This document shows, piece after piece, positions 1-64,000 of a stretch of DNA of 64,000 nt (position 1 is its first letter; each line of letters begins with the position of its first letter). The translations under genes were made by a program, and so were the position numbers. Location: assembly GCA_033439295.1 (NCBI GenBank), contig JAVTLE010000011.1, positions 868,082-932,081 of the forward strand, read 5' to 3'. The notes under the pieces were generated by a model. It worked only from the letters and a program-made list of their open reading frames with translations, had not been told where the DNA came from and ran no database searches. This DNA comes from Deuterostichococcus epilithicus. Taxonomy: Eukaryota; Chlorophyta; Trebouxiophyceae; Prasiolales; Stichococcaceae.

Positions 1-3000
1 CTGGCCTTCTTCGACGAGCTGGAGGCGGTGGGCAGCCGCTTCCACGGCTCCGCGGCGCCCTCGGTCGACTCTGACGCCTTCCTGCCGCTGCTGTCGCGCC
101 TGGACGACAGCCTCGCCTTCGTAGCGGCGCATCCGCAGTGAGCTCCTCTGATGCTGGCTAGCGGCGGGTACCTCGAAACTATGCGCATTTGTCGCACATT
201 TAGCCCTCACTCGGGAGCATCGCGGCATGTCATCTGCCTCTATGAAACTGCGGCGTGTGAGCCTCGGCTGGCTCGCGGCAGCAAGTGGGACTCAAAACGA
301 CTTCAAGCTGCCCGGAACAGGTGGTCTCAACCCGGTGATCGCTCAGAACGGTCTATGGGAACTGCATTCTGGCCGTAGGTACGCGGACGCGGGTGCGTAC
401 GCGGGCAAGTTCCGCGCGCTGCAGCAGCGGGCGCTGTCGGCGGTCCGCTCCCGCGTCTCGGCCGTGCTGCGGCACGCCTCGGAGCAGGTGCTTCTCCACA
501 ACAACTTCTGCAGGGCGCATCAGGGCAATCGGCAGTGACTGCTGTCTGACGAGCCGCACCCATATGGGACTCCGACCTGCCAAGGCCAGACTTTTGTTCA
601 CGCATGTATGCCGCCGGCACCGCCCAGGTCCCAGCAGACACTGAACGGTGGGTAAGCTGCCGAAAGCACACATGGACACGTTCTGCGCCCTTCGATCGAC
701 TCACAGGTGCAGCTGGCGATCCGAGAGGGGCGCGGCGCCGGCGGCGCGCAGCGGCCGGCGGCGGAGGCCAGCGGCGCAGGCGGCGCTGGCCCCGGGCGGC
801 GGGACCACCCTGCAGCGAACGGCGCGCTGCCGGTGCTGCCGGAGGGCGCCGAGGCGGCGCTGCTGTACGTGCGCTTCCGCGCCGCTGCTGAGCCCGGCCT
901 CAAAGGTGCACAGTCCAACAAACGGCTCATCTGCTTGGCCTGCGATGCTGGCTGCAAGCTGTGCTCGCAGCCGGGGCAAACCGACGACGTCGCCAGGTTC
1001 TCTGGAGACCAGACTGCCCCACGTGTTTGCACCTGTTGTAGAAAGGAGTTGCGACGAAGGCTGCTTGACGAAAGGCTGCTTGACGTTCTCACAAACTCCT
1101 GCCTCCCAGGGCTGCTACTGGACAAGGCGTGACGGGCAACACTGGGAAGAGCGACCACAAATCACATGCTGAGGCTGCATCCCTGACTCAAGGCTGCTGT
1201 GGGTTCGGCAGCGCGGGGCAAGGCGCCCGAGGGCGCGCACCTGCTGGGCCACTGCTGCGGGGCTGTACCGCAATGGAACCCCTGAGCTGAAATTCCGTCC
1301 ATTCCCCACAGGGCTGCTGTCAGGCGTGGCGTCGCGGGGCAAGGCGCCCGAGTATGCGCGGCTGCTGGGCGACTGCCGGGCGCTGTATTGCGAGACGCGG
1401 GTGGCACTGGTGGCGCCGGTCACCCGCTCACGCATCGCGGCAATGTCGGAGCAGCCGCTGCCGACGCTCACCCGCAGCGGCTGCGCCTACCTCATGCAGG
1501 TGTGCTCTGGCTGCCGGCAACACCTGCTGTGCTGACGCGCAATGTGCAGCCGCAACTGCCTGATGCAGAGCTGGCCTGAGAGTGCTGTGTGACTCCTGCA
1601 GGACGCGACAGGTTAATCGCTGCCTCATTCAGCGGCAACCAGGTTACACCCAACACATCTGACACGCGCCGCCTGGCTAGTATCCGCAGGCGTGCCAGAT
1701 GGAGCACCAGCTGTACGAGCACTTTTTCCCAGGCGCCGACGGCGGCGGCGGCGGCGGCGACGGCGGCAGCGGCGGCGGCAGCCTGGAGGCACTGATGGAG
1801 CCGCTGTGCACGGCGCTGTACGACGCGCTGCGCCCCCGCTTCATCCTGCTCCAGCGCCTGGACGACTTGTGCGAGCTGGTCGACATCCTGAAGCACGAGG
1901 TGCGCGTGTGTTGTTGTGTGTGCGCTTGTTGTCATTCGATTTGAATGCATCTCATCCTGATGCACACCATGTACGTTGGGCGAGGCGCCCGGCACAAAGG
2001 CTCGGGGCCCGGGGGGAGGGGGGGGGGCNNCAGTCCGGGGCAACTGGCAAGCCGGCTGTCGCATCCGTGGCTGCAGGTGCTGGGGGAGCAGCTGGGGCGG
2101 CGGGGCGATGCGGTGGCGCCGCTGCGCCCCATGCTGGGCCGCACGCTGGCGGATGTGCGCCACCGCCTCGTCTTCCGCGCCCACACCTTCATCAAGGTGG
2201 CTCCCTGGCAGCAGCCAATCGCGCGCAGCAAGTGGCCCGACCGCAGCGCGTGTGCGCATGCCAGTCGCTTCGTTGGTCGCGGCAGCATGGGCGACAGGCG
2301 GACACACTGCTTCGTGCATCGCTGGCCCGCGCCGCTGTGCAAACCGCTGCAAAGTGGCCCCAGGGCGGCCAGCTGAGCCCTGCGTCACGCTGTGAAGTCG
2401 CGCCTCATGCCGCCAGAGCTCTCGCGGTTTGAGCATGCTCCCATTGATGCATGGCTGGTCAAACCCTGCAGGAGGAGGTGGTGGGCTATCAGCCGAAGCC
2501 CGAGGACCTGGACTACCCGGGCAAGCTGCAGCGGCGGGCGGCCGCCGCAGCGCAGGGTGCGCCGCCGCCGGCGCCACCTGCCGCCGGCGAGCTGCCCAAC
2601 GCCGCGCTCGACGACCCTGAGGCGCGCGCAGCGGCCTCGGCCTGCTTATCATGCTCGATACTGCCTACATGCAAAATCGACGCTGGTGACAGAGCGCCTC
2701 GTGGTGAAGACAGCCCTGTAACACGTCCGGCAAGCAGCCGGCAGGGGCGCCATCCGACTGCAAATGCTTGCCCTGCGACAGAGTCACCGCCGCTTTGCTG
2801 CTCCTCCGCCTTCATGCGAGGGTATTCCCTGTCAATACTCGCCATGTCAATCGATTACCGCATCGTCCTCGGCGCCAGGCGGACGAAAACGCAACGGCCA
2901 TGGAGGCCTGGTGGTGCCGCTGGCGAGTCCTGCCCTTCTGAGACCCAACACCCGTCACCTCGTTCCTCAAGCCCAATGCCCGAGTCTTCACGTGCAAAAG

Positions 3001-5168
3001 ATCCATACGGGTTGTTTATTGTCAATGATGATTCAGGCGGAGGGCGACGCGGCGGCCATGGAGACCTGGTGGCCGCCTGCTGCGGCGGCGTTGCGGGCGT
3101 TGGGCCAGCTGTACGGCGCCCTCGACGGCCGCACCTTTGGCGGCCTGGCGCAGGACGCCGTCGCTGCCGCGACCGCCTCCGTGCAGAACGCCTCGCGTGC
3201 CGTCGCCAAGCGTGAGTCGTGCGTCAAGCAGAGCTCGTACGGAGCACGCCTTTGGAAGTCACAGGACAAGCGCTGGCACCAGCTTTGCACCGGACCGTAT
3301 CCCGCAGATCATGGTTGAATCGTGCTCAGCAGCTGAGTGAGTATTTGCAGGTGGGCACGCCTCCAAGCCCGATGGCCCGAAACTGGCACATGCAAAAGCG
3401 TCTCATCAGACGTCGCCATGGTCTCGCCTAAACTGGTGCACGATGCGCAGGGAGCGGGCCCATGGACGGGCAGCTGTTCATGATCAAGCAGCTGCTGGTC
3501 CTGCGCGAGCAGATTGCGCCCTTCCAGGTATGCCATCTTGGGCGTCCCTCGATCACCTGCTGGCCTGGCGGCCTTGTGCTGCTTTGCACTCTGCGCACGA
3601 AGCGGTGCTCAAAGTTGAAGGTCAGAACAGCGGGGTGCCAGAGCCTTGCCTGGATGCCAAGCTCCCCGTCTCGTTGTGCATTCGCCTTGCAGGCGGACTT
3701 TGCGGTGACGGACAAGCAGCTGGACTTCAGCCACATGCGGGACCACCTGAGGCGCATCGCCGGCGGGCCTGGCCAGCTGTTCAGCCTGGGCGCTGACAAC
3801 GCCATGCTGCAGCTCGTCAGCCGCGGCGGGCCGCGCGTGCTGGAGTCTCAGGTGTGTGCCTTTCGTCTGGATTGCAGATAGTGCATGGTGTGCTGCCACC
3901 GCCATGCTGCAGGTTGTCAGCCGCGGCAGATGTGTCATCCTTGAGTCCAGAGCCGCCCTGTTGTCTGTGTGGGATTGGATGCTGGGGGGCTGTGTCGCGT
4001 CTCTGGGAGGCTTTGGGATGCCTGCTGAGCCTTTGTCCAACAGAGGTCAGCACTTTCTCGTACTTCCCTGGACGTAACACGGTGATGAAGAGCGCTTGTG
4101 CAATGGCGGGCAACATAGCAGCTGTCTAGCACCGCTACGCTGTGCGATGCCACCAGCCGGCGCATGGCCTTGAAATTCGCCGTGCTCGCTGACCCGCAGC
4201 CACCGTCAGGTGGACTGCGAGCCAGCGCGCTCACGCTCAAACCTCATGGCCCACCAGCTATTACACAGCTATGGCTCTCTTGTCATGGTACCAGCGTCAG
4301 GTGAACTCCAAGAAGGAGCTGGAACAAGCACCAGACGCCTGCTGCGAGGTCTCATCATGCGCATCACCACGGCTACCTGCTGGCGAGGTGCTCTCGGCTT
4401 TACTGTAGCGCGTCTCTGGCTGCCAATGTCAGGTGGACAGCAAAAAGGAGCTGGAGAGGGCACTGAAGGCAGGGTGCGAGGCCTTCATCATGGGCGTCAC
4501 CAAGCTGACGGTGGACGATATGCTGTCCTTCATCACGAAAGTCACCGCCGTCAAGGTCGCGTCCTCCTCCAAGCCGCTGCGTGAGCAGGTGGGGCCTCCT
4601 GTCAAGCACGTGCGTCTTGCCCCGGTGCTCCTGCGGCACTCCTGTGCATCCCTGGGTGTAGTCGGAGGGTCGCCGCCCACTCAGCTGCGTGCCGAGGGAC
4701 CGGGCACGGAGGAGCGTGAGACAGTGTGATCCAGCAAGGCTGCATGCTGCAGGCATTCGCCTCGCCGGCGCGTCTGTCCGAGATGGTTGCCCGGGTGAAG
4801 ACGGCGATGGCCGGCCCGCTGCCCGCCGCCGTCGCCAAGATGCGGCTGTACATGGCAAATCCTGGCACGCACACGGTGCTGCTGAAGGTGTGGTTATGCT
4901 TGTGGAATCAGCCTGCAAGTCGGCCTCTGCCGCACCCTCTTTCCTGCACTCACCACTCTGCGCTGCAGAGTCTAGCCATGATCATGATGGCCCACATACG
5001 CATGAAGCTTGTCGTTCCGTTTGTGCACAGCCGATCAAGGCCAACATTGCGGAGGCACACGGCCAGATAGCGTCGCTTCTGGAGGGGGAATATGAGGATG
5101 AGGAGCGCGTGGCCATCAGCCTAACGCCGCCGGAGGAGCTCGCCAAGATCCTCGACGGCTTGGGCTGA
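1..5168 (+). CDS. COG3: Conserved oligomeric Golgi complex subunit 3 (COG3/Sec34), 5' end outside window
   Basis: COG3 is a lobe A subunit of the COG tethering complex, which captures retrograde vesicles at the Golgi. Modelled exons: 1-137, 379-487, 707-905, 1324-1499, 1690-1899, 2077-2196, 2472-about 2640, 3037-3211, 3451-3527, 3693-3851, 4433-4588, 4753-4887, 5031-5168. Diagnostic segments are [14 protein letters not shown] in the first exon, [13 protein letters not shown] followed by [42 protein letters not shown], and the ending [13 protein letters not shown]. These follow the order and wording of plant and animal COG3. Phases join cleanly at most junctions; the 3' end of the seventh exon is unclear. 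A poly-glycine insert follows the EHFFPG segment, and an alanine/proline-rich insert follows DYPGKLQ. The N-terminus lies left of the window. Several introns contain partial copies of the adjacent exon (see findings). The identity is firm; exact splice sites are inferred. Confidence 0.93.
4206..4369 (+). repeat. Two decayed copies of the COG3 exon at 4433, in the preceding intron
   Basis: Copies at about 4206-4255 and 4297-4369 each start with TCAGGTG and match the exon beginning at 4433 (coding [18 protein letters not shown]). The second includes AAGAAGGAGCTGGA, then GCGAGGT, CTCATCATGCGCATCACCA in the exon's order. The copies include the acceptor AG. Confidence 0.85.
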
Positions 5169-5675
5169 CGGGCGGTCTGTGCGGGTGAATGCTGCGGCGG
5201 AAGATGCTGTGTGGGATCAGTTCATGGTCTGCTGTCGGTGCAGCTGCGGTCAGCCACACCCCCTAATAATTGATTGGACAGGCACCTCAATTGGTGAATG
5301 CTTGTCCGCCGATGGTTCCTGATTTTATATCGGCGGCGCCTGTAGTCCGTCTGACTCACGCCACAAATTCGCGCAAGTGTAGCAGCCCAGTCGCGTCATT
5401 GCTTCACTTTCAACTCTGAGTTTTTCCGCGAAGAAGATATTCCAGTCTCTTGCATATGCGCGCCGTTGCTCGGCACTCTTGACCTTCTCGAGACATCCGG
5501 CAAATCAGTCGTTCACGTTCGTTGGTCAGCGACATCACGTGCGCAGCAACTTCGTTTGCGCTGCAGGCTTTGCGTGGCCCATTGTTTCTCGAAATTCGAC
5601 AGCCGCTGTAGCATTTGCCAGATTTGGGCGCAACTCCCGTGACACTCCGCTGGCCGCTGGCCGGCTGTGGCCAGC
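5169..5675. other. Intergenic region COG3 / tafazzin-like gene
   Basis: About 500 bases between two genes in the same direction. It should hold the COG3 3' UTR and the promoter and 5' UTR of the next gene. A stretch near 5260-5330 is more AT-rich than the coding DNA. I see no open frame with family signatures, no RNA gene and no repeat. Confidence 0.6.
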
Positions 5676-8600
5676 ATGCCGTCGCAAGAGATGGCGATGG
5701 TGGGCGTGTCAGCGTACCGCCAGCTGTTGCGGAAGATGCGCACTGCGGGCGGCGCTGCACCGACAGAAGACTCTGCCGCCGCCCTACAGCAGGTCGAGTT
5801 CGCTGCCAACTTGCTATGCTGACATTTTGTAAACTCTGCGATGTGCGTGACTGCCTTGACAGATCCGAACACTTTACAGAATCATACGTGCATCTGGGTC
5901 GCAGGCGAAGCAGCGCGTCATGCTGCGCCTGACAAGTGCCCATGCAGACCGCGTGCAGCGGGACCCTCGGCGCGCTTTTGCCCGCATGCGCAACCAGGCA
6001 AGCGGTCATACATTGTGGGTTCCATTCACAGTCGAATAGCGGCGCAGCTGCACGCCCGACCGGCCTCAAAACTTGTCGGGCGTGCACAGCAGCCAGCGGT
6101 GGCCTGGCAAGGCTGTCTCTGCACCAGGCAGCAGCTCAAGACATTGGGCTCTGAATCGATTATTACTATCTGACACAGGTGGCACGGCTGCGCGAGGTCA
6201 AGGACAGCGCAAAGGACAGCATTAAAGAGCTGGGCTCCGCCCGCGCCGCACGGCTGCGCTCGGCGTATGACAGCCTGAAGCAGCGCAGCCTGCGGGCGGT
6301 GGGCGCCCGCGGCGGCCGCAACGATGTCGAGGTCCTTGGCACCAACGGCCCGCTGCGGGTGCGTCAGTGCATGCCCCTGTTCATGTCCTGTGCATGCGGG
6401 ATCGGTGCAAGGTACATTGATGAGGTAGTGCGCTGTGCGGATGACTGTGTAAACAATGTGAGGCCGTTCAGGCGCCGATGGCCATCGGCGCCATGCTCGT
6501 ATTGCGTCTCCTGTGCAAAGCCTCGGGTCAGAGGTCGGCGTTTGCTTGCCTCTGCAGATGCTGGTGCTGGGCAGCGTGGCGGCGGCCTCCAAGCTGTTCA
6601 TGCAGGGCCTGTCGACCACCACTGTCGAGGGCGGCGCGGTGCTCACCGCGGCACAGGTTAGTCCCTGCCTGGAGGGTTATCTTTGCTGTGTGGTCCGATG
6701 CTGCGGTGACGCTCTGCAAGAAGCACTGGAAAACTTGCACGCTGACGACCTGGCAGCATGTCCACGTATAGTGCGCACCGCTTACAGCACGAGCGTGAGC
6801 AAACCCTGCACACACGCAGGCGCGGCCGCAGGGGCAGCCGCTCATCACGGTCAGCAACCACGTGGCGGCGATGGACGACCCGCTGCTGCTGGCGGCGCTG
6901 ACGCCCTTCCAAAACGTCTTCGAGGCCGGTGGCATGCGCTGGTCCCTGTGCGCCACGGACCGCTGCTTCAAGGGCCCGCTCATGGCCGCCTTCTTCCGTG
7001 CCGGCCAGGTGCGCAAGCCAGTCTCGAGCTGTGCTGGGTATGCACGGGTATGTACGGTGCGGCGGTGGCGTCTGCTGCTGAATGCTTCGTCAGCGCGTTG
7101 GTAAGGGCACAGAAATTGCCGGGATGAAATTAGCTTCTTAATAGTAGCCTGCCTCGCTGCCTGCTCACATGTCATACACTCGTCTTTCGTCTCGTCAGCC
7201 GCTTTCATGCGTTGCAGGTGCTGCCCGTGGAGCGGGGCAAGGGCTTGGACCAGCCGGGCATGCGGGCGGCAGAAAGCCGCCTGGCCGCCGGTGACTGGGT
7301 GCACATCTTCCCAGAGGGCACCCGCTCTCCCAACGGCAGCGCCATGGGCCCGCTGCGGTGAGGGCCCGACGGCTCTGTCACACTGGGCTGAATGGCACGT
7401 TAGCAGGTCGCCATCGTGCAGCGCGTGCCATGCTGCAAGCCAGGCCGGGCCGGTCTGGGCCCGCTGCAAGACTGGACCCGCCACAGCTGAAGGCGCTGCA
7501 TGTCAGAGGCTTCCTTGCTTGTCACAGACGTTCTACGAATGTGGTTCCCATGGACAACGATAGTGATTCCGGGTGCTCCCTGTTCATCCCCGCAGCTCCG
7601 GCGTGGGTCGGCTAGTGGCGGCGTGCGAGTCGCCCCCGCTGGTGGTGCCCATAGTGCACGCAGGCATGGAGGCTGTCATGCCGCGCGGCCATAGCCTGCC
7701 AGTGCCCGGCCAGCAGGTACAGCATTTGCGCTCACCTGCCTGGGTAAGAAACACACTGTTGGTGCTCCGGACTCCGTGAACACTCCACAGCTTGGTACGA
7801 GGCAAGCCCGGGCTGTCAGCTCTCATGCTGCCGGCGACCTGTGAATGGCAATGGACATGCCTCGTAACTTTGTCGAGGTCGTTCACAGAGGCGCAGTCCT
7901 GCTTGACATCCTTTGTGTCTAGAAGGTTTGCATGCGCCTGTGTTTGTGCGGCAGTGGCTCGACGCGTGAGATCTGAGTTTTTCCTGGTTTAAAGCTGTGC
8001 TGACTCTCGCGGGCGCATGTGCTGGTGAGCGAACCCATTTCGGTGGACATGGTGTTTTGGTGGCCGCGGCCGCACACACGTGTTGATCCTTTGAGTGCAG
8101 AACCTGAGTTGGGCACCTGTCTTCGTTCACCTTTCCTGCAGGTGCGGGTGCTGGTGGGCGACCCGATCCCGGTGGACGACCTGATGGCGGCGGCGGACGC
8201 GCAGGCATGGCCGGACGCGCGGCTGTACCGCGCCGTAGCCGCCCGCATCTCCGAATCCATGATCGCGCTCAAGGTGCCCGCCTGATGCTTGCCCTTGCTG
8301 CTACTTTGATGACCAGTAGACGCCCGCGCCTCGTGGGTCTTCCTGCCGCCTCGATTGATCTGCCATGTACGACTCGGGCAGCCAGACTGGTACCCTGCTG
8401 AGCGCTTGACGGGGACCTGCGGCGAGGCACTTAGACCCGTGAAGGAACACACCAAGGGTCTCATCATTTGTGTGTCCCTGTCTCAACAGGCGCGGCTGGA
8501 TGGCGTGCCGGTTCCCGCGGCGGCCGCGGCGGTGCTGGACGACCAGCAGATGCTGCCGATGATCGAGGACGAGCTGGATGCGGGCAGCCACTCCTGGCTG

Positions 8601-8936: not shown

Positions 8937-9611
8937 CATTAACACCAGTCTTAAGGAGCAGCTGTGTTGCAAGCTAGTGCAGAAACGACCTGCGCCGCTG
9001 CAAATACATGTGTGTTTTGAGTTGAGAGCAGGACATATGTCTAGTCTGACAGCCGCGAGCCGGTACTCAATGCCAAACAGTGAGTCATACAGCGGTTCTC
9101 GTGTGCTAGGCGTGAGCCATTAGATCGTCGAAGGACCTGTGTGCTTTGTCCAGCTCAAGTAAGTGTTTGCCGCTCCCTTTTTGCGGCGCCAGTAGCAATC
9201 GTAGCCTTCCGCAATTTCAGCAGTGCCTCGTTTGTGACTTCGGGTCAAGCGGCCTTCCACAACCCACCAGCTGCAGCATGTGCACATATTGGCAGCAGCG
9301 CATGCGCTTGGCTGTTCCTTCCAGCTGCCGCCGGGGCACATCAAATCATCAATGCTGCCATCTGCCACTTCGACTGCAACAAAACTGCGTGCATTGCGTA
9401 ACGTCTGCCAGTACAGGGCTCAAAGCACACGCCTGCGGCGATAACCTTTCAGCAATCTAACATTTCTGTAGGCCAAACCCACATGTTCACAGGACCTGCT
9501 CGTGCAGAAACTCTAGACTCCGAGCGACTGCAGTCATCATTTGACACATACCGTCCTCCCCTGTCCGCCCCTGTTGCTTGAACCCAGAAGATCAGGGGTG
9601 ACTGGGCCGTA
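8937..9611. other. Intergenic region tafazzin-like / RRP4
   Basis: About 675 bases separating two genes on the same strand. The stop TAA of the upstream gene overlaps a TGTAA, the usual green-algal polyadenylation signal, but it sits at the stop itself, so it may be coincidence. Small open frames here show no recognisable protein and no RNA gene was seen. Confidence 0.55.
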
Positions 9612-11524
9612 ATGCCTGTGCCCACAGTCCTGGTCGTGCAAGCCGGGGTGGAACCGATGGTCATCACCGCAAACGCCCTAGCTGCAGAAAATGTGCCAGA
9701 AATGCTGCCGGACACCGCCTTCGCCTGCGTAGGCGACACCATCGATGTCAGCATGCAGGATGGCTTTCTACGGTGCGGCGGCCATTCAAGCCTTCGTGGT
9801 GACCAAGTGTGCAATGGGTAGAAGCGAATGCCATGTACTAAATATGAATGTTTGATCGCAGGGGCCATGGCACTCAGGTGGTTGACGGCAAGCTCATGGC
9901 GACGCTGTGTGGCGTGGTCGAGGTGCGGTGGTTGCCTGAAGTGAGGGATTGTGCTCAGCCTGAAACTGACACGCTTGCAAGTAGCTGACCCTTGAATGCC
10001 ATCCGTGCTCTGCGTCATCTCGCTGACTGCCTGAACCACCCAAGACATGTCCGGCTTACAGCTGGTGTCAGAATCGATCCGTGTGGATCTAACGGTGCGT
10101 GTGACCTGACAGCGTGTGAACAAGTTGGTGTCGGTGCGGCCGCTGGCGAGCCGCTATGTGGCAGAATTGGGCGACGTGGTGGTGGGTCGCGTGACAGACG
10201 TCGCGGGCAAGCGCTGGAGGGTGGATGTCGGCGCGCAGCAGCAGGCCATCCTGCAGCTGTCCGCAGTCAACCTGCCCGGCGGCATCCAGGCAAGGTTCTC
10301 TTCAAGATCTCAGCCCTGAAAGCCAGCATCAGCTGCCCGGCGGCATCCAAGCGAGTGCGTCACTGCTGGTGCCATGACCAGCGTGCCGACCCACTCGGGG
10401 GCGAGTGCCGGGCATGGAATGTCAAGGGTGTTGATGGTGGTGACGCGCCAGCATGTCGCCCTGCAGCTGCCGTGTCATGGTGCTACAGCTTGGCCGGATG
10501 AGAGCGGGGAGCACGCCAGTGGTAAGCGGGAGACTTGCAGCACCCGTTGTCGGTGTATCAGCACTATGCGGTGTGTCATGGGATGTCAGGAGGGTAGGCC
10601 TGAGTCCATGCTGCAGCAGTAAAGACGAGGAGTCACTTCTTTGGGTGGATATTACTGACAGCTTTTGCGCTCAATGGTCTTTGCAGTGGCAATGATGGCG
10701 GAGCACCAGCTGAACCTGCGATCGCGCATGACTGGCTCGCTGGTATCGGACGAGCTCCTGAAACTGCCGATATGTTTGTGCGCACCTGCAGCGGCGGCGC
10801 ACAGCAGAGGACGAGCTCAACATGCGGTCGCTGTACGGGGAGGGGGACCTCATCAGCGCGGAGGTGCAGTCCTTTTATGCCGACGGCGCCGTGGCGCTGC
10901 ACACCCGCAGCCTGAAGTACGGCAAGGTGCGCCGCGCAGAGGTTGTCGCACCGAGACGTTGCTGTAAGGTCCAGGATGGCATCCTCATCTCATCATGCCA
11001 TGCGATAACATACTGGTTGTGTCCCCTCGTCCTGTAGCGCGGCAATACACGATGGCTCCCGGTGCATTCTGCAGTCGACTGAAGTGCCGATCTCGTGCCC
11101 GCAGCTGGTTGGCGGGCAGCTGGTGAGGGTGCAGCACAACCTCATCAAGCGGCAGAAGATGCACTTCACGTCGCTGGAGGCCATCGGCGTGGACATCATC
11201 TTTGGCGTCAATGGCAGCGTGTGGGTGAAGCCCTGGGTGCCCAAGCCGCTGACAACCGCCCTGGCACAGCAGCAGCAGCAGCAACAACCGGCGGACTCAG
11301 CGCCAGAGCTTGCGGCCACCATGGAGCAGCGGCGGGATGTCTGCCGAGCGGCGAACGCGGTCAGGGTGCTGGCCGCGTTGCAGCTGCCGGTCCATGCGGA
11401 CGCGGTGGCAGCGATTGTTGGTCTGGCGGCGCAGGAGGAGGTGTCGCTGGCGCACATGCTGCAGACGCCGTTCCTGTCATTGGTGGCGGCCCAGGAGGCG
11501 CAGCAACGCATGCAAACAATGTAG
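9612..11524 (+). CDS. RRP4: Exosome complex component RRP4 (EXOSC2)
   Basis: A cap subunit of the RNA exosome, which threads RNA into the 3'-5' decay machinery in nucleus and cytoplasm. Exons: 9612-9772, 9862-9922, 10113-10289, 10792-10926, 11105-11524; phases join exactly. The N-terminal domain ends GDTIDVSMQDGFLRGHGT, the RRP4 hallmark. The S1 domain follows (VERVNKLVSVRPL, ELGDVVVGRVTDV, KRWRVDVGAQQQ, LSAVNLPGG), then RRRTAEDELNMRSLYGEGD, ISAEVQSF and LHTRSLKYGK. The KH-like region begins LVRVQHNLIKRQKMHF and runs through GVDIIFGVNGSVWVKPW. The third intron starts GC rather than GT (GCAAGG at 10290). A glutamine run follows the KH domain. The C-terminal tail of about 85 residues is longer than usual and poorly conserved. 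Start chosen as the only ATG giving an uninterrupted first exon. Confidence 0.95.
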
Positions 11525-16401: not shown

Positions 16402-19400
16402 ATGAATGAGACGGTGAAGAGTTACATCTCTCACTTTCGGGTCAGAGAGCTGCAGAGCGTGCTAGAGCAGCTCGGGCTCCCAAAATCCGGCCGCAAGTCG
16501 GACCTGGTGGCACGAATCTTCGCCTTCTTTGGCGAGGAGCCCCCGACCGGCATACGGTGCGGGCTTTACCGGCGTGCGGGTTCAGTTGGGTCCGCTGCCA
16601 TACCTCACATGCTCACCAATGATTAAACGAAAGCTGAGCTGACCCCTTTCACATGCAGCATGCAGTGTCATACACACCGTGACATAAGTCGATGTCTGCA
16701 GGCATGACATCCAGCCGCGGGAGCAGTGGCGCCTTGAGGCTGCTGAGCGCGCCATCACAGCCACCTACAGGTCGATGATGGGCTTGCTGCCGGGCAGCGC
16801 CTCCACCAGCGGTGCGACCAGTGTCCCAGCCGCGTCGGGCGCAGTACAGATGGGTCAGCACACCGTGCCGGGGGCGCTCACGCCAGCACAGGCAGCCGCG
16901 GCGCAGCAGTCCGCGCAGCAGCTGGCGGCGGCCGCCGCCGTCAATAGCGCCCTGCGGTGGGTTTTTTCGCATGCTCCAGTTCTGAGGGTGCTGCCCCCTG
17001 AAGGAGTTTTGCATCTTGATGTCCCCTTTGGGCCTCCTAAATTGACGGTGGATGTCCCTCCAGCGTGTGTCGCATGCGGTGACTGCATAGTCGTCGGACC
17101 TCCCCAGAGTTTGGTCCAGGCTCGAGGCAGCGTTGAGGCGGGCTGTTCACTACCAGTGTCGCTGGAACGATCCCTGCATGGCTTACACCTTACCATCCTT
17201 GCGCTGCAGGCCATCGCCCGCCAAGCGGCCGGCCCAAAACAGCCAATTTTACCTGAAGCTCAACAGCGACCAGTTCACAAATGCGCGGTCGACAACGATC
17301 CGCTGTGTGTGCGGTGATAATGCCGATCGCGGCCACATGATCCAGTGCGAGGTGACTGACATGATTCGGTCACAGCCTGCCGCCCTGCTCGACTGTGTCC
17401 TCTTCCATGTTGGCATTGGCCCAGGGCGCATGACGACAAACGCCATAGCACACCGAATGGCAGCGACAATGAAGGCGGAACCAACGGTCAGGCCCCTGCG
17501 CTGCATGTGCAGGGCGACAAGTGCGGCGTGTGGCAGCACAGTGCATGCGTGGGCGTTAGCGCCGCCGAGCCGCCGGAGCACTTCTTCTGCGAGTGGTGTC
17601 GCATAAGCCTGGCGGACCCCTTCTGGGAGCCGCTGCAGCGGTCCTTCTTCCCGCCCGCTGCACTGCGCCATGCCAAGGCGCCACCGCCGGCATACCTCAT
17701 TCCGGGCGAGCGGGTGCGGACTGTGCAATGGCAGCAGCACATGCATCGGCAGCTTCCAAAGACGTGCCGCACATTGCTCAAGCGGGAGGGCGCTGCACAG
17801 CACGGCGGCAGAGGTCGCCACGACAGGCCACACGTCATGCACTGCATCGTGGCGCACTTGTTGCTTGGGGTCTGCATGCAAGCTAGGACTGCTTCCATGC
17901 TCAGAGCCCTGAGGCGCTGCTGCCATTTCTCGATGCGAAGATCGCTGACTTGCATAGTAGTCAAAGCCCTGCTGCATCTTGAACGCCAGTGCCTGACACC
18001 GGGACACTCGTGCCTGCGACCAACAGCCGCAGCCAATGCAGAGCGTGGACCGCTCCTTCATGGTCAAGGCGCCGGACGCGGCGACCTTTCGCACCAAGCC
18101 GGACCACCAGCTGCAGGCGGTGCGCCCCCAACCCTCGAAGCAAGGTTTTAGTCCTGAGCACCGCACCAAGCCGGACTACCAGCTGCAGGCAGCGAATTCT
18201 CACCCATAAGATCACTGCGGCTCCAAGCACCCTGCTGCAGGCTAGTGTCCGGCTGGACAGATTGCGTCTGACGGTCATGGCTAGCCCATGAGACGACCTC
18301 GTGCCAACCTCAGTCGTGCGCCGGGAGCTGCATAACAACATGCTGCGGGGGTCGACACCGACTGACTGCTGCGCGGCCTCTGGTGCAAGCCGGAGACGGA
18401 GGCAGGAGAGCGCGAGCAAATGCCAGGTTGTGTCCATGCAGCTGGGTCTGAAAGGCAGGCCAAGATAAACAGCAGTCTGGGGATGTAGGGCAACTCAGGA
18501 GAGCAGACAGCTGGGAAAAAGTATTGCTGTGGCATGGCAGGTGTGCGTGCAGCTGGGGGACGCGGTGCCATTCCGCTTCCACTGGCCGCGTGCGGCAGAC
18601 CTGCGCGTCAACGCCATGGCGTATCGCCCCTACGGCCGCAATCCCTCCTCGAAACTCGGCAACAACGCCCGCGACGAGCCCGCCAGCGTTGGTGCGCTCG
18701 CGCCCCCGCTCAATTGCTGCTTCCTGTGCTGCTGCTGCTTCCTGTGCTGCTGCCTGCCGTGCTGCTGTCCGTGCTGCTGTCGTACCTTGGGGAAGGACTT
18801 CAAGGCCTGTGTGACAAATGGCAATGCACGTTGCGACTCGTGCATGAGGTGAAGCGTCAAGCCGTTGTTGAGAGCTCGCGTCTGATAAGGAGTGTTTTTG
18901 CAAGGCGCTATGGGCATGGACTGGACTGGTTTGCACATGGTGTGTGGCGGTGGACCGCTGCCGCTTCACGCACGACGTCGTCCCATCTCACGCAGTCTGC
19001 ACGTTCATGGTCTGCTGACCTTCGAAGACAGTGGCTGCGATAGAGCGTGTCTCCCGCTGCTGCAGGTGCGATGTGCTTCACTGGGAAGAACCGCATCACG
19101 CTCGCGGCCTACGACGAGACTCGCTACGCCGTGGGCGTGCAGCTGGTGCGGCACCGCTCACAGGCAGAGGTGAGGAATGAGAGGCTGCCCAGTCAGGCTG
19201 TCCCCTGACCTTCTACTCTTGAGTTGGCGACTCAGGAAGCCGCTGTGATTGCTGCTGGTGCTGTCACCGCTCGCAGGCAGCGGTGAGGAACGCGCGACAC
19301 ACTTCCATGAGGACTGTCCAACGATCTTTAGGTCTTCTGCGCTATTGTTGGGCGCAACTGCACCACTGCTTCGGTCATCCTTGGGTTACCATGTGAGGAC

Positions 19401-22784: not shown

Positions 22785-22820
<36 letters not shown>

Positions 22821-43152: not shown

Positions 43153-43184
<32 letters not shown>

Positions 43185-47631: not shown

Positions 47632-50600
47632 ATGGGCTGCGGCCACTCGAAGTCGCGCGGTGAGGATCTATCAATTTCAGATCATGTCAGCTGCCGAGAA
47701 TTTGGGAGTTTACGTGTGGTGCTGTGGCCCCAAAAATGAGCTTATGAAATGAATTCAATAGAAAACGCCTTGCGTACACAAGCAGTGCTGTACGCCCGCG
47801 TGTGGCTGCCACCCACCTCTCAGAGGCGCCGCTGCGTCTGCCGTGTGCAGACCCGGAGACGGTGGACGACTGGCTGGCGGGTCTGGGGCTACCGCAATAC
47901 ATTCCCGCCTTCCATGCCGCCGGCTACGACGACTTGGCCACCCTGGCGCACCTCAACCCGGTGGACTTGAACCTCATAGAACAGGCCGCGGGGTCGGCGG
48001 TGCTGCCAGGCCACCGCAAGCGCCTGCTGCTGGCTGCGCCGCAGCTGCAGGGGCTGAGGCCGCAGAGGCAGCGGCCCGACACGGGAAGGTGCGGCGGCGG
48101 CGGCATCGGTGCCATCAGCGGCGCCGGCGCCGCAATGCAGCCAGGGGCGTCACCGCGCAGCACCTCCGCAGACACGGCTAGCGCATCCAAGGTCAAATTT
48201 TCGACAGCCATCAGAAGCGAAGACCATTGACCAAGCTTTCTGGGAGCTGCGCCTGCTGAGACCCTTTTGCCCGAAGCTTGCTATCCGTCCGGTGGCACTC
48301 ACGTGACTGCTGCACTGCTGTTGGACACAAGATCTTTATGTCCACAAAGATCACTCTCACCTTTTGGGACGCGCTTGATGTGTAGGTGAATGGCAGCACT
48401 GCAGAGGTGCTCTCGCCGGCCGCTGCGCCTGCGCCTGACCAGCACGCAGAGCCGGCCGCCAAAGAGTCTCACAAGGTGCCTACGCCCGTGGGCGGCCGCA
48501 TTTGAAAGCGTCTCCAGCTGCCATGGTTGCTGGAAACCGCGCAACACCACCACCATGCAAACATGTCATCGCATGGCACACGTCGCCAGTGTCCACAGAT
48601 GGTGCATCGATGCAAGCAGCCCACTACCCCCCATTTGACTGCCTTTCGCCATTGCAACCGACCAGGCAGCGGCGCCCGGCGGGCGGCGGGCACCTGCCAT
48701 CCAGGCGCGCGCCCGCATGTGGAGCCCCAGCCCGGCGCCGGAGTCGCCGCCGGGCGCGACGGGCCCCGCCGCGGCAGCCGCCAGGGCCGCCGGCGCCACG
48801 CCCGCACCGGTGGTGCCGCCGGCGCCGCAGCCGGCGCCGCCGCCCCCCTTCCCCGGCGTCGTCTCCAGCGGCACCTTCGTCGTGGAGAGGTCCCACGACA
48901 GCGGCGCCCGCGGAACGGATGGCGCGGACGGTATGGGAAGCTTTGTCGGCGGCGGCGCCGCTGGCGCGGGGCGCCGCGCACGGAGCGCGTCCGTCACCTC
49001 GCACGCCTCCCACGAGTCCGCTGGCAGCAGGTGCAGGTCTTTGATGAGCTGATCTGCATCTTGAGCTTGCAAAAAGTCCAGCAGAACATGTCAATGACAA
49101 GGCGAGTGCCGCCATTCTGGGACTCGGAAATCAGTCGTTCGCACAACCTGCAAGAAGGAGATGGCAGGCTGCTGACAGCATATGTCGCTGCTTGCAATAT
49201 TTATTGCTGCTTCGACTCAGGGTGTCGTCTTCTTGCCATCTCCTTCGCCACCGCCTACTCGCCCCTCTCAAGCATGGGCAGGCTGTGTCGAGGGCATGCT
49301 CACGGAGCCGGAGCCCTAATCCGTCTCCCTGATCACGACCCCTCTTTGTACAGCCTGCCCATGCACAATCAACCGTGTCAATGCGGACCTTGTTTAGACA
49401 AGGGCTGAGGTACTGCAAGGCGACCATCGGCGCTGGGTAGCCCTGCAATGCATGCGCTGCAGCACAGCAGGCAGCACGGCTATTGCACTGCTGTGGATGG
49501 GCTGTGCCGCCAACCACGACATACAGAGTGCAAGGTGTCGTCACCGACACTCATGCACACAGCAAGCACCGCAGCTCTGGGCATGAAAGCGACCATCGTT
49601 CGCAACTCCTGGCGCCTGCCAAGGCTCCCGACTGTCGTGGCGCAGGGTCGCCACGCCGGCGGCGTCGGGCACCAGTTCAGCACAACAGGCAGGCGCCCCA
49701 GCTGCCAGGCCAGGTGCAGGGCGCGGACGGGGCCGCAGCCGCGGCCGTGGTCCCATGCAACAGCAGCCTGTCAACGGGGCCAATCGACCGCCGCCGCGCT
49801 GGTGTGTGGGTCACTGCCGATTGTACATGCATACGGAAACAATCTTGAGCAGGCTGTGATTGCAAAGCACCTGTAGGACACTCAGCCGCAGGTGGTTTGG
49901 TCGCCTTCTAGCGGCTGCCCAACAGGAATCGTGCCCAGATAAGAACGCCACTCGTTTTCTGGGGGCTGCCCAGCAGGAATTATGCCCAGACAACAACGTC
50001 ACTCGTCTTCTGGGGGCTGCCCAGCAGAAGCTCTGCGCAAACAGAAACGCCACCCAGAAGCACCAAATATTTTCAAGCAGCGTTAACTCATGTCATGATC
50101 ACGTCACCTTGCACTGCAGGACCAGCAGCATCAAGGGCGGCGGCTGGCAGGCGGACCCGCCTGCCAAGCCGCGCGGCAGCCGCTCCAGCAGCGGCGACGG
50201 CAACACCCGTAACCCGGAAGAGGTCAAGGTGGGGTGCCACCAGTATTGCTCTGCACGCAGCGGACTGTCACGCATATGCAAGGCGCACATCTGTGCGCCA
50301 GCAACACGCGGGATCAGGTGTCCCGCCTCTCGACAGCATTTGCAAGGCGCTCTCCATTGCTGGACTCGACTCTCGGGTCGCGGCAAGGCGTCTGAAAGGC
50401 AGGGCCGTGCGCCAGCACCTGTCAAGGGAAACATGTTTGCTCCATACCATATCTGCTGCCTGAGAATCACCCTGTTCACGTGCTGCAGGCTAAACTGGCG
50501 GCGCGCGCCGCGGCGCGAGAGCAGGCCAGCACGGGCCTGAGGGCGCACCTCAAGGCGATCCGCGGCGCCACGGCCGCCGCGAGCTCCTCCGGGCTGTCGG

Positions 50601-58953: not shown

Positions 58954-61900
58954 ATGGCTCGGCCGGCCCTCACAGCGGAGGAGGATGAGTCGAGCCTGGA
59001 GGTCACAGACCTGGGTGAGCTTATGGCAAAAGAAGTTTGCATGGCAACACTGCGTGTCGATCTGTATGCACATATCGAGTAGTGCTATGCTGGCGGCGGC
59101 CTGCACCTACCCTTTTCGCTGCCACAGGCGGGTCCGACGCCCAACACCTATTGCGGCAGTACATTCGGGAGGCTCTGCTGGCGCGCAGCCGCGGCGCCGA
59201 CACCGGCGCCTACACACAGTGAGCCGCGCATGATGTCGCCTGGCCAGTTTGCATGCTGCGTGCTTTCTGCAGCGGTTCAGCAGTTTATGCTTGGTAGCGA
59301 TAGAGATTCGTGCGAGCGTGCGACGTGGTGCTGTAGTTATGGCTCCCCTAAGGATGACACGCGTCCAGCAGCATGCGCGCCTTCGCGACTGCAGCCTGGT
59401 GCGGGAGGTCCGGCAGCTGAAGGAGCTGGTGGCCCTCGGCGCCGACGCCGGCGGCGGCACGGAGGCGGAGGCCGAGGAGGACCCGGAAGCGGCGCTGGCG
59501 GTGGCGCAGCTGGCCAACATGCTACGGGCGCTGTCGGGCCACGTATCGCTGCTGCACGAGCGCACGCATGAGGCGCTGCTGTCGCAGGTGCTAGGGCTCC
59601 AGCTGTGGACCGCACCCCAGGTGCGTCAGCTGCTAGGGTTCCGTGTTTCCCTGTCAGCATCCCGGCGTGCCTTGAGACCATGACAACGCTCTGCCACAGC
59701 GTGCATTGCATTGCATTGCGTCGTGTTGCATTGCATTGCATTGCTTTGCTTTGCTTCCTGCGGCATGGCACGGTCAGGATGGCTGCCAAGCCAGGGCATT
59801 GCACATGGTGCCTTAGTTTGGTGTCCGGCACCACCGTACCATGCCGTTGCATGCTACGCCGCGCCATGCCATGCAACGATGCAAGTGTCCAGTGGGTATG
59901 CCCCTGGCGCATTGGCGGAGGCAACCTGTCTTGTTTGCCCTCTCATGGCCGGCGTAAGCTGACTCATGGACGTGAGCGCATGTCTGACGCCGGCAACGTT
60001 CTTGTGCCCTCTCCACAGGAGTTGCGCATCGCGGCGCTGCAGCTGGTGCGGCACCTGATGCTGTGCAGGCGGGCCGCTGGTGCACCTGGCACTTCCGGAT
60101 GATGTGCCCAACGGCGCGTGCCACAACCTCATATTATGGTTTGCGTGCACCACAGGAGGTGCGCACCGCTGCGCTGCAGCTGGTGCAGCACCTGGTGCTG
60201 TGCAGCGGGCCGCTGGTACACCTGGCGCTGCGCATGCTGGTGCTGGGGCTGGCGCCGCCGCCGCGCCCCCCGGCGGCGTCGGCTGGCAGCCGGGGCCCGG
60301 CGGCTGGCGCCCGGCGCCGCACGCGACGCTGGTGCAGGACCAGGTCACCGGCGTGCTGCTCAAGGTGGGGCTGAATTGTATAACTTATAAGCCCCTGTTA
60401 AGACGTGACACTCTGGTGAAGCACAGCTTGCCCGTCAGCGTCTGGGCTGAGCTGCAACTGCGCCAAAGTCTGCCTGTCATCGAGTGTCAAACACCTTTTT
60501 GCCCAAGCCGAGAGTCTTCAAACTCAATTGTCAAATCCTGCTACAGGCCTGAACTCTACCGCCTTTCCTTGGCTGCATGCGCTAGCATGATGACTGTCGC
60601 CTGCAGCACAGCAGCTCGGCGTCGACTGGGCGCAACCAAACTCAGCCCGTGTTTCTCCTGGACGCCAGGTGCTGAAGCTGGTGCCGACGGCGCCGTCGCG
60701 GCTGCTGCCGGTGCTGGCGGTGGGGCTGCCGCACAAGAGCCGCGACCGCGACGCGCACTGCCTCGCGCTGCGCGGCGTGTTTGCGCTCGCTGCCTCGCCC
60801 GCGGGCGCCACCATCCGGGAGGGCCTGCTGGCGGCGGTCGTGGATCATCTTCTGGAACTGGACGTGGAGATCCGGTGGCAGGTGCGGCATTTTCCGACAA
60901 CCTGGCGGGGCAGTGGATCTGCGGTGGGTAGAGCTTGGTAGGCTCTTGTGCGTTGCAGGACAGGCTGAGCCACAGCTGGCCAGTGGTCATGCGCATAGCC
61001 ACAAACAAGGGAGCTGTGAGTTTGGCCGCGCACTGCAGAGTTCCATTCAGGGCTTGTGCATGGAAATTACATGGGAGGCTCGCCAACTGGCGCCGCCACC
61101 CCGCAGCTGGCAGCCGTCTCCACTGCCAGCGTGCGGAACAGCAACCTTACCTCACGCACCTCTCCAGCAGTGTTCTGCAGCCATGCCGTGCGTCCCAACT
61201 AAGCAGCAACTTCATCGTGGTCGACATTGATGCCGATGGTTCTCAAAATGGCCAGAACATCTTGGAGCGGCCGAGCGAGCCGGAGGAGGGGGAGGCGTAT
61301 GAGGCAGCGCGGCCTGGTTCCCGAGTCGCATTCCCGGTCCAGCAAAACGTTTCCATGATGTTGGTGGCAAACTCCTGTCTCCTTGCAGGACATCTCCGAG
61401 CGGCCGGACGAGCCGCAGGAGGAGGAGGACGAGGCAGCGCAGCAGGCGCAGCTGGACGCCGAGGTCGAAGACATCTTCGAGCTGGAAGGTGGGCCGCGCC
61501 CCGAGAGGGGGGAGGGAGTTGCCGGCCTTGCAGGGCCTGCACCGGCGTTGCAGCATGCATGGCCGGATGCCCAACGGATGCTGGCACACTCATCCGCCGC
61601 CCCTGCGCGCCCTTGCACGCCGTTGCGCAGAGGCTGCTGCAGCTTGCCTGGCACGGGCACGGCGACTTGTTCATGGTGGTGTGTGTACGTGGTGCAGGCA
61701 TGATGGAGCTGGGCATCGACGGTCACCCTGTGGGGCAGCCGGGCAGGCAACAGGACGGCAAGCTGCACCGGGGCGGCTGGGAAGGTGCACCGGCGCCTGC
61801 GCAGGTGAGCTGGGGAGCGCTTGCCCACTTCTGAGCCAGTTTGTCAGGCTATCGCACACACCTCATTCAGACACTGTTTCATGCCATACATGTTGTGTTA

Positions 61901-64000
61901 ACTCTTTAGATAATGGAAAAGTGCCCTCAATATTTTTCAGGGCGCCACGTGTTGTTCCATGCCATACATGACATTTCAGGGCGCCTCCTCTGGCGAGCCT
62001 CGGCTTCAAGCAGACTGAACCTAGTCTGAGCCCTGCGTTGTCAAACTGTAGCATCCGATGAACCGTCTGGGATCCTCATCTTCCATGTTCGTCTTGCCTC
62101 TGCATTCTCACATGGAAGGATCTTTCTACAAGCCACAACTTGGTCATGACACCAAGCATGGGCTTCGCATCCTGGCAATCACATCCAATTTTACAGTCTG
62201 CTAGCCCGCAGCATTGGCTCTGCCCGTTGCTGGTTCTCAATGCTGGCAGTAGTTCATGTTCGTCCATGCAAACGTGCCCTGCAGGATTGCTTCAGCTCCC
62301 TGTGTGCCGCCCAGCCGCTGGGAGCAAGTGTCTGAGACAGTTGCTTCAAGTCGAGTTATCGCCACACATCCAAGGCCGTCAGCGTTCCTGCAAGGTGGAC
62401 AGGCGGGGCGCATGCTCGCCATGAACATGCTGCACGCCTGCAGCGATACATGATAGTGCTGAGCGCAGTTGCCGACAATTTGCGGGTACACCTCGTGCCT
62501 CGCTGAGAACTATGTCACGCTGCAGGCTGCTGCAAACCATGTCAATATGGGGTTGCAACGAAACATTTCGAGTAAGTTCCGGCCATTCATCTAGCAAGCG
62601 AGCTGGTGCTGGGCACATCTGCCCTGCAGGATTGCTCCGCTCTGTCTGCAGTCGGAGGCACTGAAAACGGCTCTCCTCGGCGTGGTGGACACGAAACAAC
62701 TGCAGCAGCAGTCTGCGACCTTCCAAGGCATGCGTGCTGGGCGCATTCTAACAACGAGTTCACCCGCACACGCCTGCAGCGTGACATATGAGCGCTCATA
62801 GCGACTGGCGAGTCTTTGCGGCGCCATGTCAGCCCGGCCAGCTCGATGGCGCTTCCTCGTTCCAGCACCCCGCTGCATGGACCGAGGTACCGTTGATGTG
62901 CTCTGTGAGACGTCGGGACAGCAACAAGGTTCTCAGTCGTGCAAATTATACTCCTTGCTCGGTGTCCATTGCTTTTGCGAGCGTGGATGGACACCGCTTT
63001 AAACTGAACTATCGTTGGTGCAGCACCGCGGCACATCTTGATGTCGTAAAGTGCAATTGAACCAGCAACAAATACCTATTTGGCACATCATGGGTCGACC
63101 CTGTCGAACCCAGCAGTAGCTGCGTGGTCCACCGCCTGTCCGCAAACTTTGCAAGGCAAGTGTGCCTGCCGCAGTGCACTGCTACACCTGTAGGGTTCAG
63201 GGTTGTCCTTCGCGCTCTGACTGTGCCACAACCGCTCCCTCTCCCCGCGTCAGGTGCCGGCGGCGCAGCGGACAGCGGCGGACGAGCAGGCGGACAAACT
63301 GGACGCGATGATGGAGCTGACACTGGCGCACCTGCAGCAGCGGGGGGAGGCGGGGCAGGGTCTAGCCGCCTGGGCCACACTGCTCGCCGCGCTGGACCGG
63401 GCCCTGCTGCCGACGCAGCGCTCCAAGTTCACGCAGTTTCTGCTGTTCTACGCCGCCCGCCAGGTGTGCAAAACTCGGGACTGCAGCCTCAGGTCACACA
63501 AAGGCTTTGCTGCCGGCGCAGCGCTCTGATCCCGCGCAGCCTCCTGTTTCGCTGCGATACCCGCCTTGCTCCGTTGTGGTCTCATGCTGCCTTGGACTCA
63601 CTGTTTCTGCACCGCCTCTGCTCACGAACCTTCTGCGCAAGCCGTGCACTTCTGCTGGGTGTGCCGTCGGACGTGCAGTCGGCGGCAGCTGTAGCCGTAG
63701 AGTGTCGCAGCGGCGTCGCGGGCGGTGGCCGGACCGACATGAACTCCATGTCGCCTGCTCCGTCCGCCGACGGGTTGCGTTTGCCTTGCCTCCTCGAGCT
63801 GGAGCCATCGCAGTGCTCGCAGGAGATGTTGCAGCTGCCACTGCAGCTGCCGCTGGCGCGGGCGGGCGAGGTGCAATCAGCGAAACCGGCACGAACATGC
63901 TTGACGCTCGGTTTGACCGTCTGACGGCGCTTGTGGTCCCTGATGCGCGGCCAGGAGCCGGAGCAGTGCTCGCGGGAGATGCTGCAGGTGCTGCTAGCCC
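58954..64000 (+). CDS. RRN3: RNA polymerase I initiation factor RRN3/TIF-IA, 3' end outside window
   Basis: RRN3 bridges RNA polymerase I to promoter factors and is the growth-controlled step of rRNA synthesis. Exons: 58954-59014 (MARPALTAEEDESSLEVTDL), 59128-59218, 59395-59620, 60156-60364, 60669-60881, 61389-61488, 61697-61804, 63254-63463, and probably one starting near 63950 that runs off the edge. Hallmarks: EVRTAALQLVQHLVLCSGPL, VLKLVPTAPSRLLPVLAVGL then PHKSRDRDAH (usual FPHKS), HLLELDVEIRWQ (usual KLLKLDVEIPR), the acidic segment, ADEQADKLDAMMELTLAHLQ, and LPTQRSKFTQFLLFYAARQ (usual SRFTQFLLFYLC). In the exon at 60156 the frame that starts it (EVRTAAL) differs from the frame that ends it (TLVQDQVTGVLLK). 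The exon is 209 bases, and a shift at the C6 run near 60263-60268 would explain this: a sequencing indel or a true frameshift. The intron 61805-63253 is unusually long. Confidence 0.88.
59703..59755 (+). repeat. Degenerate (CATTG)n / (CTTTG)n pentanucleotide repeat in an RRN3 intron
   Basis: A run of imperfect ATTGC/TTTGC units just downstream of the exon ending at 59620. Confidence 0.85.
60013..60100 (+). repeat. Decayed tandem copy of the next RRN3 exon (acceptor plus about 80 bases)
   Basis: This intronic segment aligns with 60150-60236, offset about 137 bases. By hand I count about 8 mismatches and one single-base insertion over roughly 82 positions (about 90% identity). The copy includes the CCACAG acceptor. 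It would read GAG-TTG-CGC against the exon's GAG-GTG-CGC. The real exon is taken as the downstream one because it continues into conserved RRN3 sequence. Confidence 0.9.

Follow-up and report, generated by a model that had tools for sequence, protein, structure and literature searches.

The window, a 64,000-nucleotide stretch of the Deuterostichococcus epilithicus genome, contains a COG3 gene near its start and, further along, a probable acyltransferase-like gene, a glutamine-rich gene, an RRM-like gene, a helicase HA2_C gene and an RRN3-like gene. Introns in the window carry short, diverged copies of the adjacent exon edge, here called echoes, which are of acceptor type when they copy an exon head and of donor type when they copy an exon end. 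In the COG3 gene, an acceptor-type echo of the head of exon 1312-1499 occupies 1189-1267 (forward strand here and below unless the minus strand is named; blastn 79% identity over 80 bases, offset 120 bp), with its exon partner at 1309-1387 placed by the blastn pair and the gene model. This exon falls in a conserved, gap-free region of the COG3 alignment. The echo sits within intron 906-1311, distant from the donor, as read off these coordinates and not from a systematic count. Two further acceptor-type COG3 echoes keep their CAG, 2876-2914 from the head of exon 3037-3211 (82% over 39, offset 158) and 4296-4369 from the head of exon 4433-4588 (75% over 75, offset 132), while a donor-side echo of exon 3693-3851 lies at 3892-3927 (89% over 36, offset 100), its match stopping 24 nt before the end of that exon.

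Beyond COG3, a weaker echo at 8019-8048 copies the exon head at 8142 in what is probably the acyltransferase-like gene (83% over 30, p = 0.001). Segment 18162-18190 repeats 18090-18118 (97% over 29, offset 72), and the gene finder places both copies inside one exon; 19250-19290 repeats 19138-19177 (88% over 41, offset 112) at a site with no gene model, so that its donor type is the label of the original prediction. Exon 27163-27283 has two donor-type echoes with GT kept, at 27359-27407 (78% over 49, offset 114) and 27455-27494 (88% over 40, offset 203). On the minus strand, an acceptor-type echo of exon 30144-30224 in the RRM-like gene lies at 30287-30326 (85% over 40, offset 89, CAG kept), and on the forward strand 39478-39506 is an acceptor-type echo of exon 39624-39728 (97% over 29, offset 143, CAG kept). 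Two echoes precede a single exon of uncertain edge, a distal one at 44564-44621 (79% over 58, offset 209, exon at about 44773) and a proximal one at 44667-44712 (83% over 46, offset 115, exon at about 44782). The acceptor-type echo 45792-45838, from exon 45956-46114 of the helicase HA2_C gene (79% over 47, offset 171), has a similar intron flank as well (p = 0.02). In the RRN3-like gene, the acceptor-type echo 60013-60093 of the exon starting at 60156 (90% over 81, offset 137) keeps CCACAG with a 1-nt gap, and 61253-61313 copies exon 61389-61488 (acceptor type, 80% over 61, offset 133, CAG kept). Finally, 63801-63838 echoes 63954-63991 at the window end, where the gene model is uncertain (84% over 38, offset 153).

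The original prediction had listed 19 intervals as decayed partial copies of neighbouring exons. Each interval was aligned against the 400 bp on the side where its partner had been predicted and against 1000 random 400-bp pieces of the window more than 3 kb away. In 18 of the 19, the same-strand local partner beat all 1000 random pieces (p = 0.001, the permutation floor), with scores of 35-118 over 23-80 aligned bases and, in agreement with the varied divergence that had been predicted, identities of 75-97%. The interval 10305-10358 is short (23 bases, 91%), and 4206-4255 remained weak, with 13 aligned bases only (p = 0.009). Copies of exon edges in adjacent introns are thus a real observation. 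A scan of the whole window (score at least 40, offset 20-600) found 22 direct and 0 inverted local pairs. Six of these direct pairs are internal repeats of the glutamine-rich gene at 21.9-22.8 kb and not echoes.

The survey was widened to 294 kb, consisting of the window and 23 stretches of 10 kb at blind-chosen coordinates on 17 contigs (labelled L below). Local pairs numbered 64 direct against 1 inverted overall, and 42 against 1 in the 23 stretches outside the window, of which 16 had at least one direct pair and 7 had none. The positive stretches lie on 14 contigs besides the window's own, plus one on the window's contig, and a few of their direct pairs are simple repeats. A BLAST self-comparison is blind to offsets below about 50 bp, and for this reason an ungapped diagonal scan that includes short offsets was used for the size distribution; it gave 59 direct and 3 inverted pairs, both low-complexity filtered, and 0 in block-shuffled DNA. 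The genome is GC-rich and glutamine-codon repeats occur among the pairs (the glutamine-rich gene of the window, L006:1410, L014:6577/6590), as an explanation by chance, composition or simple repeats would have it, but controls with inverted, shuffled or re-paired sequence yield zero or close to it, and we take this explanation as refuted. An assembly or haplotype artefact, to which the 10 N bases in the window and the fact that the echoes are known from the assembly alone would point, is very improbable, as 75-97% identity with frame-breaking gaps is not allele-like and direct pairs recur on the 14 other contigs.

Introns were predicted with a purpose-built gene finder with a hand-set codon-usage table and minimum intron length, checked against orthologs for COG3 only; its models leave 154 of the 294 kb unassigned, with missed genes surely among them. 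A comparison of introns with their own and with re-paired exons had been called for in the original prediction. Run on the 294 kb, it showed 11 of 269 predicted introns matching their own flanking exon at a score of at least 40, against 0 of 2690 mismatched intron-exon pairings and 0 of 269 reverse-complement pairings. Introns holding exon sequence from their own gene, in the sense of Exonize (PMC12343006), number 11/269 against 0/2690. Echo-bearing predicted introns number 13 of 269, about 1 in 20, and the claim that echoes occur in nearly every gene was too strong at 11-13 of 269.

A search for exon-to-non-exon pairs returned 31, of which 30 were analysed after one L006 pair (offset 1119) was left out. 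In 24 of the 30, the match stops no more than 16 nt from an independently predicted exon edge, which together with the 64 direct pairs against 1 inverted upholds local same-strand duplication at exon edges. Echo offsets have a median of 123 bp (interquartile range 104-155 bp) and fall between 80 and 230 in 49 of 60 pairs. Echo-bearing introns are longer, with a median of 406 (n = 13) against 220 in the others (n = 256; P = 4e-6), and subtracting the offset(s) brings them to 228, against 220 in introns without an echo. The excess is about one unit, as in the remnant of a tandem duplication, with two caveats, the sample of 13 and the easier scoring of long introns. Longer introns also offer more room for finding an echo. 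At the three introns of COG3 that bear echoes, the gene model without echoes shows no insertion relative to seven orthologs; the alignment is gap-free around two of them, and the third (2622-3036) lies in a variable linker where the orthologs are longer. These data are consistent with the earlier proposal that the intron lengthens while the protein stays intact. If about 1 in 20 introns (13/269) bear exon-edge copies, splice-site duplications would be an appreciable source of intron lengthening. Extrapolated from this density, the whole genome would hold thousands of events.

The echoes, judged from their sequences, do not look coding. Differences between exon and echo in the 30 events are nearly flat across codon positions 1, 2 and 3 (63/486, 76/485 and 97/479, a third-position divergence of 0.20), and 24 of 27 gaps break the frame (19 of 22 when the polyglutamine pair L014:7084 is set aside), which makes them degenerate copies in the Exonize sense. 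An intact frame with a coding-type substitution pattern was not found in these 30 events, and the suggestion that echoes offer an alternative exon appears unsupported on the evidence of the gaps and codon positions. Functional alternative, decoy or poison exons maintained by selection would account for the scarcity of in-frame stops (1 of 30 echoes) and for the splice dinucleotides at mapped echo edges, where AG is kept in 11 of 16 and GT in 8 of 9. This retention is above the 54-57% in simulation, where the mapping of edges is stricter (P = 0.03 against 55%), and is near the 74% expected when echoes diverge by about 0.14 per site. Against selection stand the frame-breaking gaps and near-flat codon positions, and an age sufficient to saturate the intron flanks, described below, would imply a saturated exon third position where 0.20 is observed; selected exons therefore seem unlikely.

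The echoes are probably what remains of small duplications, tandem or nearly so, across exon edges. This reading draws on the local same-strand excess, the exon-edge placement, the non-coding decay, the longer introns and a young example in which the tandem is complete. A small local duplication would happen to straddle an exon edge, copying the splice site along with part of the exon. Splicing at the outer copy would for this reason still join the correct exon ends, while the inner copy would become intron and drift neutrally. The real exon would be held constant by selection, so that nearly all divergence between exon and echo accrues on a single side, and the pair would stay recognisable as the intron parts of the duplication fade. 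We infer local duplication as the origin of the echoes other than the young example and, for all of them, splicing at the outer copy, and break repair or replication slippage as the maker. The young example is the array L016:9205-9470, a tandem duplication with a unit of 133 bp (59 exon-like and 74 intron-like bases), where the exon is our reading of an open frame (65 codons, no Pfam match) with no gene model at the array. Its exon part is more diverged (6/59) than its intron part (3/74; Fisher P = 0.18), opposite to expectation. In-frame stops in just 1 of 30 echoes likewise weigh against the duplication reading. Repetition of the full unit including the intron part is seen there and in part at L018:3773/3880, where 42 nt of intron similarity are retained; flanks are detectable in 7 of 30 events overall.

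The original prediction missed that similarity stops abruptly at the splice site, so that the duplicated intron part of the presumed tandem duplication is mostly unrecognisable. The stop is unusually sharp. Intron flanks are detectably similar (p < 0.05) in 6 of the 25 events with a credible edge; the other five of the 30 were dropped from this set because the copy falls short of the predicted edge by over 12 nt. Among those dropped, the polyglutamine pair was kept in the 30-event flank and codon counts, and L014:8641 (minus-strand coordinates) is identical at 25/25 with a similar flank (p = 0.010). Neutral decay at equal rates predicts 16 of 25 detectable flanks against 6 observed (P = 5e-5), and only 1 of 25 echoes carries more than 16 nt of intron against 7.3 expected (P = 0.002). 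Even among five echoes with 91-96% exon-part identity, the flank is similar in one. From 9 nt inward, introns are about as identical as mismatched partners are, except at 41-60 nt, where they come out slightly higher (0.52, 0.51 against 0.46, 0.39). The simulations assume the observed echo/exon rates, indels at 1/8 of substitutions, ages uniform to 0.5 and our own gene models, and the one on the flanks varied only the intron/echo rate ratio (1, 1.5, 2, 3, 5); a ratio of 1.5 gave P = 0.02 on both measures, and the data fit from 2 upward. This mismatch between exon-side and intron-side similarity, a testable anomaly in the evolution of duplicated splice regions, would be explained if introns turned over at twice the rate, if the exon part were homogenised, or if copying left the intron out.

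Homogenisation would refine the duplication reading and does not exclude it. In this view the tandem duplication would be old and saturated in its intron parts, but the exon would have repeatedly renewed the exon part of its echo, either through gene conversion over short tracts or through template switching, acting on direct repeats that lie about 120 bp from each other. It accounts together for the recent exon-echo similarity at third positions, the unrelated intron flanks and the sharp stop, and it fits places with more than one echo (27.3 kb, 44.6 kb, L005:5.6-5.9 kb, L016:9.2-9.4 kb). However, its conversion tracts are hypothetical, classical conversion works poorly on substrates of 40-80 bp with 85% identity, and intron turnover at twice the echo rate fits too (P = 0.25), which leaves homogenisation doubtful. 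Similarly tentative is the proposal that exon edges re-imprint into the adjacent intron by copying or conversion whose tract stops at the splice site; if true, echoes would stay exon-like while the flanking intron has long turned over, and could in turn pass changes back to exon ends. RNA- or cDNA-templated copying of exon ends would likewise end sharply at splice sites, but the outer echo flank resembles the neighbouring exon in 0 of 25 events at p < 0.05, the splice dinucleotides of the intron often accompany the echo, and intron sequence is included at L016 and L018:3773, making such copying highly unlikely.

When three stretches containing echoes were searched against the genome, no dispersed family turned up, and the only matches of the echo portions were to themselves and to the adjacent exon, as expected from the earlier statement that these are neither one repeat family nor introners. 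In one of these searches, a microsatellite in the queried intron had further matches at six contig ends and at one place on C5. Introner elements share sequence between genes. Introners and echoes alike add sequence within introns, and unlike introners, the three echo queries matched the local exon alone. Echoes also resemble tandem exon duplication with mutually exclusive splicing (by its title, the topic of PMC9013439) in having duplicated exon sequence in the neighbouring intron, but they are partial and frame-broken. In intron gain by tandem duplication, splice sites are touched and one copy is intronised, as with echoes, but the new intron arises inside an exon, whereas echoes lengthen an existing intron.

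The earlier statement that no standard feature class exists went too far, as partial exon duplication into introns is, on the passages available, already catalogued by Exonize in inter-boundary and intronic classes (PMC12343006). There, exon sequence recurs in introns of the same gene, degenerate copies included; across 20 eukaryotes, genes with such events significantly outnumber those with full-exon duplications, and the events are scarcer in lower eukaryotes. Exonize, as described there, matches by translated exon coverage, whereas echoes are short edge fragments with a splice site and mostly without a recognisable intron part. A rice study, in the summary given by PMC7407515, attributes insertions of 10-1000 bp to inaccurate break repair, the insertions being tandem, partially tandem or sourced within 200 bp of the break; echoes are like these duplications, but their mutational origin is deduced here, and the passages available are silent on splice sites. 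Among top-ranked titles in a literature search that covers subscription papers poorly, none dealt specifically with partial exon copies in introns that are bounded by the splice site. Since exon and echo are identical at the start, echoes may serve as a clock in this compact, intron-rich alga. They are also able to mislead gene finders, and ours called exons inside echoes at 60019-60045 and 63823-63870.

Partial copies of exon edges, here termed echoes, lie in adjacent introns of the window, either upstream of the exon (acceptor type) or downstream of it (donor type). Of the 19 intervals listed in the original prediction, 18 match a same-strand sequence no more than 400 bp away with a score above that of all 1000 random pieces; the sole exception, 4206-4255, has a weak partner. 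At equal score, the window contains 22 direct local pairs and no inverted pair, and 23 stretches of 10 kb elsewhere in the genome (L003-L025, on 17 contigs, with coordinates picked blind) contain 42 direct versus 1 inverted, with no direct pair in 7 of the 23. A diagonal scan without the near-diagonal exclusion of BLAST found 59 direct and 3 inverted pairs, and none after shuffling in 50-bp blocks. Among the 269 introns with flanking exons of at least 30 bp, 11 reach a score of at least 40 against an own exon (acceptor side 9, donor side 3, one intron counted on both), versus 0/2690 mismatched pairings and 0/269 in reverse complement; at a score of at least 36 the figures are 13/269, 2/2690 and 0/269. 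Because of these inverted, shuffled and mismatched-pair controls, chance and composition were ruled out as the source of the copies. Genome searches with three echo-bearing stretches revealed no dispersed element, in line with the earlier view that no introner family is involved.

A purpose-written gene finder supplied the models, with 440 exons (median 130 bp) and 350 introns (median 206 bp). Thirty pairs (17 acceptor type, 13 donor type) connect a predicted exon with DNA no more than 600 bp away that is either predicted intron or unassigned; in 24 of them (acceptor 15/17, donor 9/13) the end of the match lies no more than 16 nt from the exon edge. Offsets between copies, taken over 60 pairs of all classes including glutamine-codon repeats and confined to offsets of 60-300 bp, have a median of 123 bp and an interquartile range of 104-155 bp. 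This clustering suggests a preferred duplication size, and since the peak is likewise seen in exon-exon pairs and in pairs without a gene model, mutation, and not splicing, may account for it. At L019:5027-5087 with 5155-5218, and at L016:5633-5675 with 5746-5788, both copies were called exons, and each pair may be a tandem exon duplication or an echo called as an exon. Within the window, a glutamine- and proline-rich coding region (21892-22835) has internal repeats that imitate echoes in a dot-plot, and in a predicted intron (49906-50053) a 51-bp unit is tandemly repeated about three times.

The best explanation for the echoes is that small duplications spanned exon edges while the outer splice site kept working. 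Such a duplication would straddle the exon edge, the outer splice site would stay in use, and the intron would lengthen by about one duplicated unit. Introns with an echo have a median length of 406 bp (n = 13) versus 220 bp without (n = 256; P = 4e-6), although part of this difference may reflect easier scoring of longer introns. Subtracting the offset(s) brings the median to 228 bp, and thus the excess is about one unit. The fresh state of a duplication is shown by L016:9205-9470, where a 133-bp unit (59 exon-like and 74 intron-like bases) is present twice, with differences at 3/74 positions of the intron part and 6/59 of the exon part. Its putative exon lies outside the gene-finder models and is our own reading from an acceptor and a 65-codon open frame, for which a Pfam match was not found. 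Visual inspection places an older third head, with its CAG, a short way upstream (near 9152), so that 9150-9480 comprises three exon-like heads and two near-identical 74-bp intron-like tails; by our reading, four amino acids distinguish the two younger heads. At L018:3773/3880, similarity of the intron part is retained over 42 nt. In rice, tandem and near-tandem insertions of 10-1000 bp are described in a review as a likely product of inaccurate break repair (PMC7407515), and we infer a similar cause here. Intron gain by tandem duplication (PMC2891723) is a related known outcome.

An anomaly is the abrupt end of similarity at the splice site. Most echoes lack a recognisable copy of the intron part, with flank similarity at p < 0.05 in 7/30. 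Across the 25 events whose edge is credible, the exon side (9-40 nt) shows 0.75-0.84 identity versus 0.52-0.60 for mismatched partners, while more than 8 nt into the intron the values, by bin, are about equal (0.43-0.58 versus 0.39-0.57), the farthest bin lying slightly above its mismatched counterpart. Neutral tandem duplication was simulated with detection identical to that on the real data. Flanks were detectable in 6/25 events versus 16.1/25 simulated (P = 5e-5), and matches reached past the first 16 nt of the intron in 1 versus 7.3 (P = 0.002); with intron turnover set to twice echo turnover, the simulation expects 8.1 and 3.1, values consistent with the data (P = 0.25 and 0.16). Therefore, either introns turn over faster than echoes, or conversion or slippage renews the exon part, or in many events nothing but the exon and splice dinucleotide was copied. 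Weak evidence against a generally fast intron rate comes from the L016 array, whose exon part has accumulated proportionally more differences than its intron part (Fisher P = 0.18). Copying from spliced RNA is excluded so far as outer flanks tell, as these match the neighbouring exon in 0/25 echoes.

There is little sign that the copies are coding. Exon-echo differences at codon positions 1, 2 and 3 number 63/486, 76/485 and 97/479, as expected of a free-drifting echo (about 0.14 per site) against a constrained exon with a small synonymous excess. Gaps are not a multiple of three in 24/27 cases (19/22 without one polyglutamine pair). An in-frame stop occurs in only 1/30 echoes, but the echoes are short and GC-rich. 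That the echoes are functional exons kept by selection seems very improbable to us, but the splice dinucleotide is retained at 19/25 mapped edges (AG 11/16, GT 8/9). A simple calculation from echo divergence predicts 74%, and the simulation, where edge mapping is stricter, 54-57%; there may therefore be a modest excess, and the simulated figure raises the odds of functional exons very slightly.

The first gene of the window encodes COG3, whose best named relatives are from the trebouxiophycean green algae Elliptochloris bilobata and [Myrmecia] bisecta (61% identity; 66% to one further relative), so the source is probably a trebouxiophyte whose genome lacks annotation. Modelled without echoes and compared with seven orthologs, the COG3 gene has no insertion at its three echo-bearing introns; two of these fall in conserved, gap-free alignment, and the third (2622-3036) in a variable linker that is longer in the orthologs. 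Pfam, run on seven proteins from the window models, matched four, and the other genes identified in this way are acyltransferase, RRN3, helicase HA2_C/OB fold and RRM.

The genome comprises 46.8 Mb in 21 contigs, the window occupies positions 868082-932081 of contig C10, and its GC content is 59-67% per 4-kb block. The observation of a TTGCA-type microsatellite in a window intron (59702-59754) also covers loci L026, L027 and L028. The microsatellite has matches at six contig ends (C7, C9, C10, C12, C14 and C19), no more than about 650 bp from the end, and at one internal position of C5. C7 and C12 are identical over their initial 600 bp, and the C19 end carries the TTGCA-type repeat with two TTTAGGG units, a shared subtelomeric sequence.
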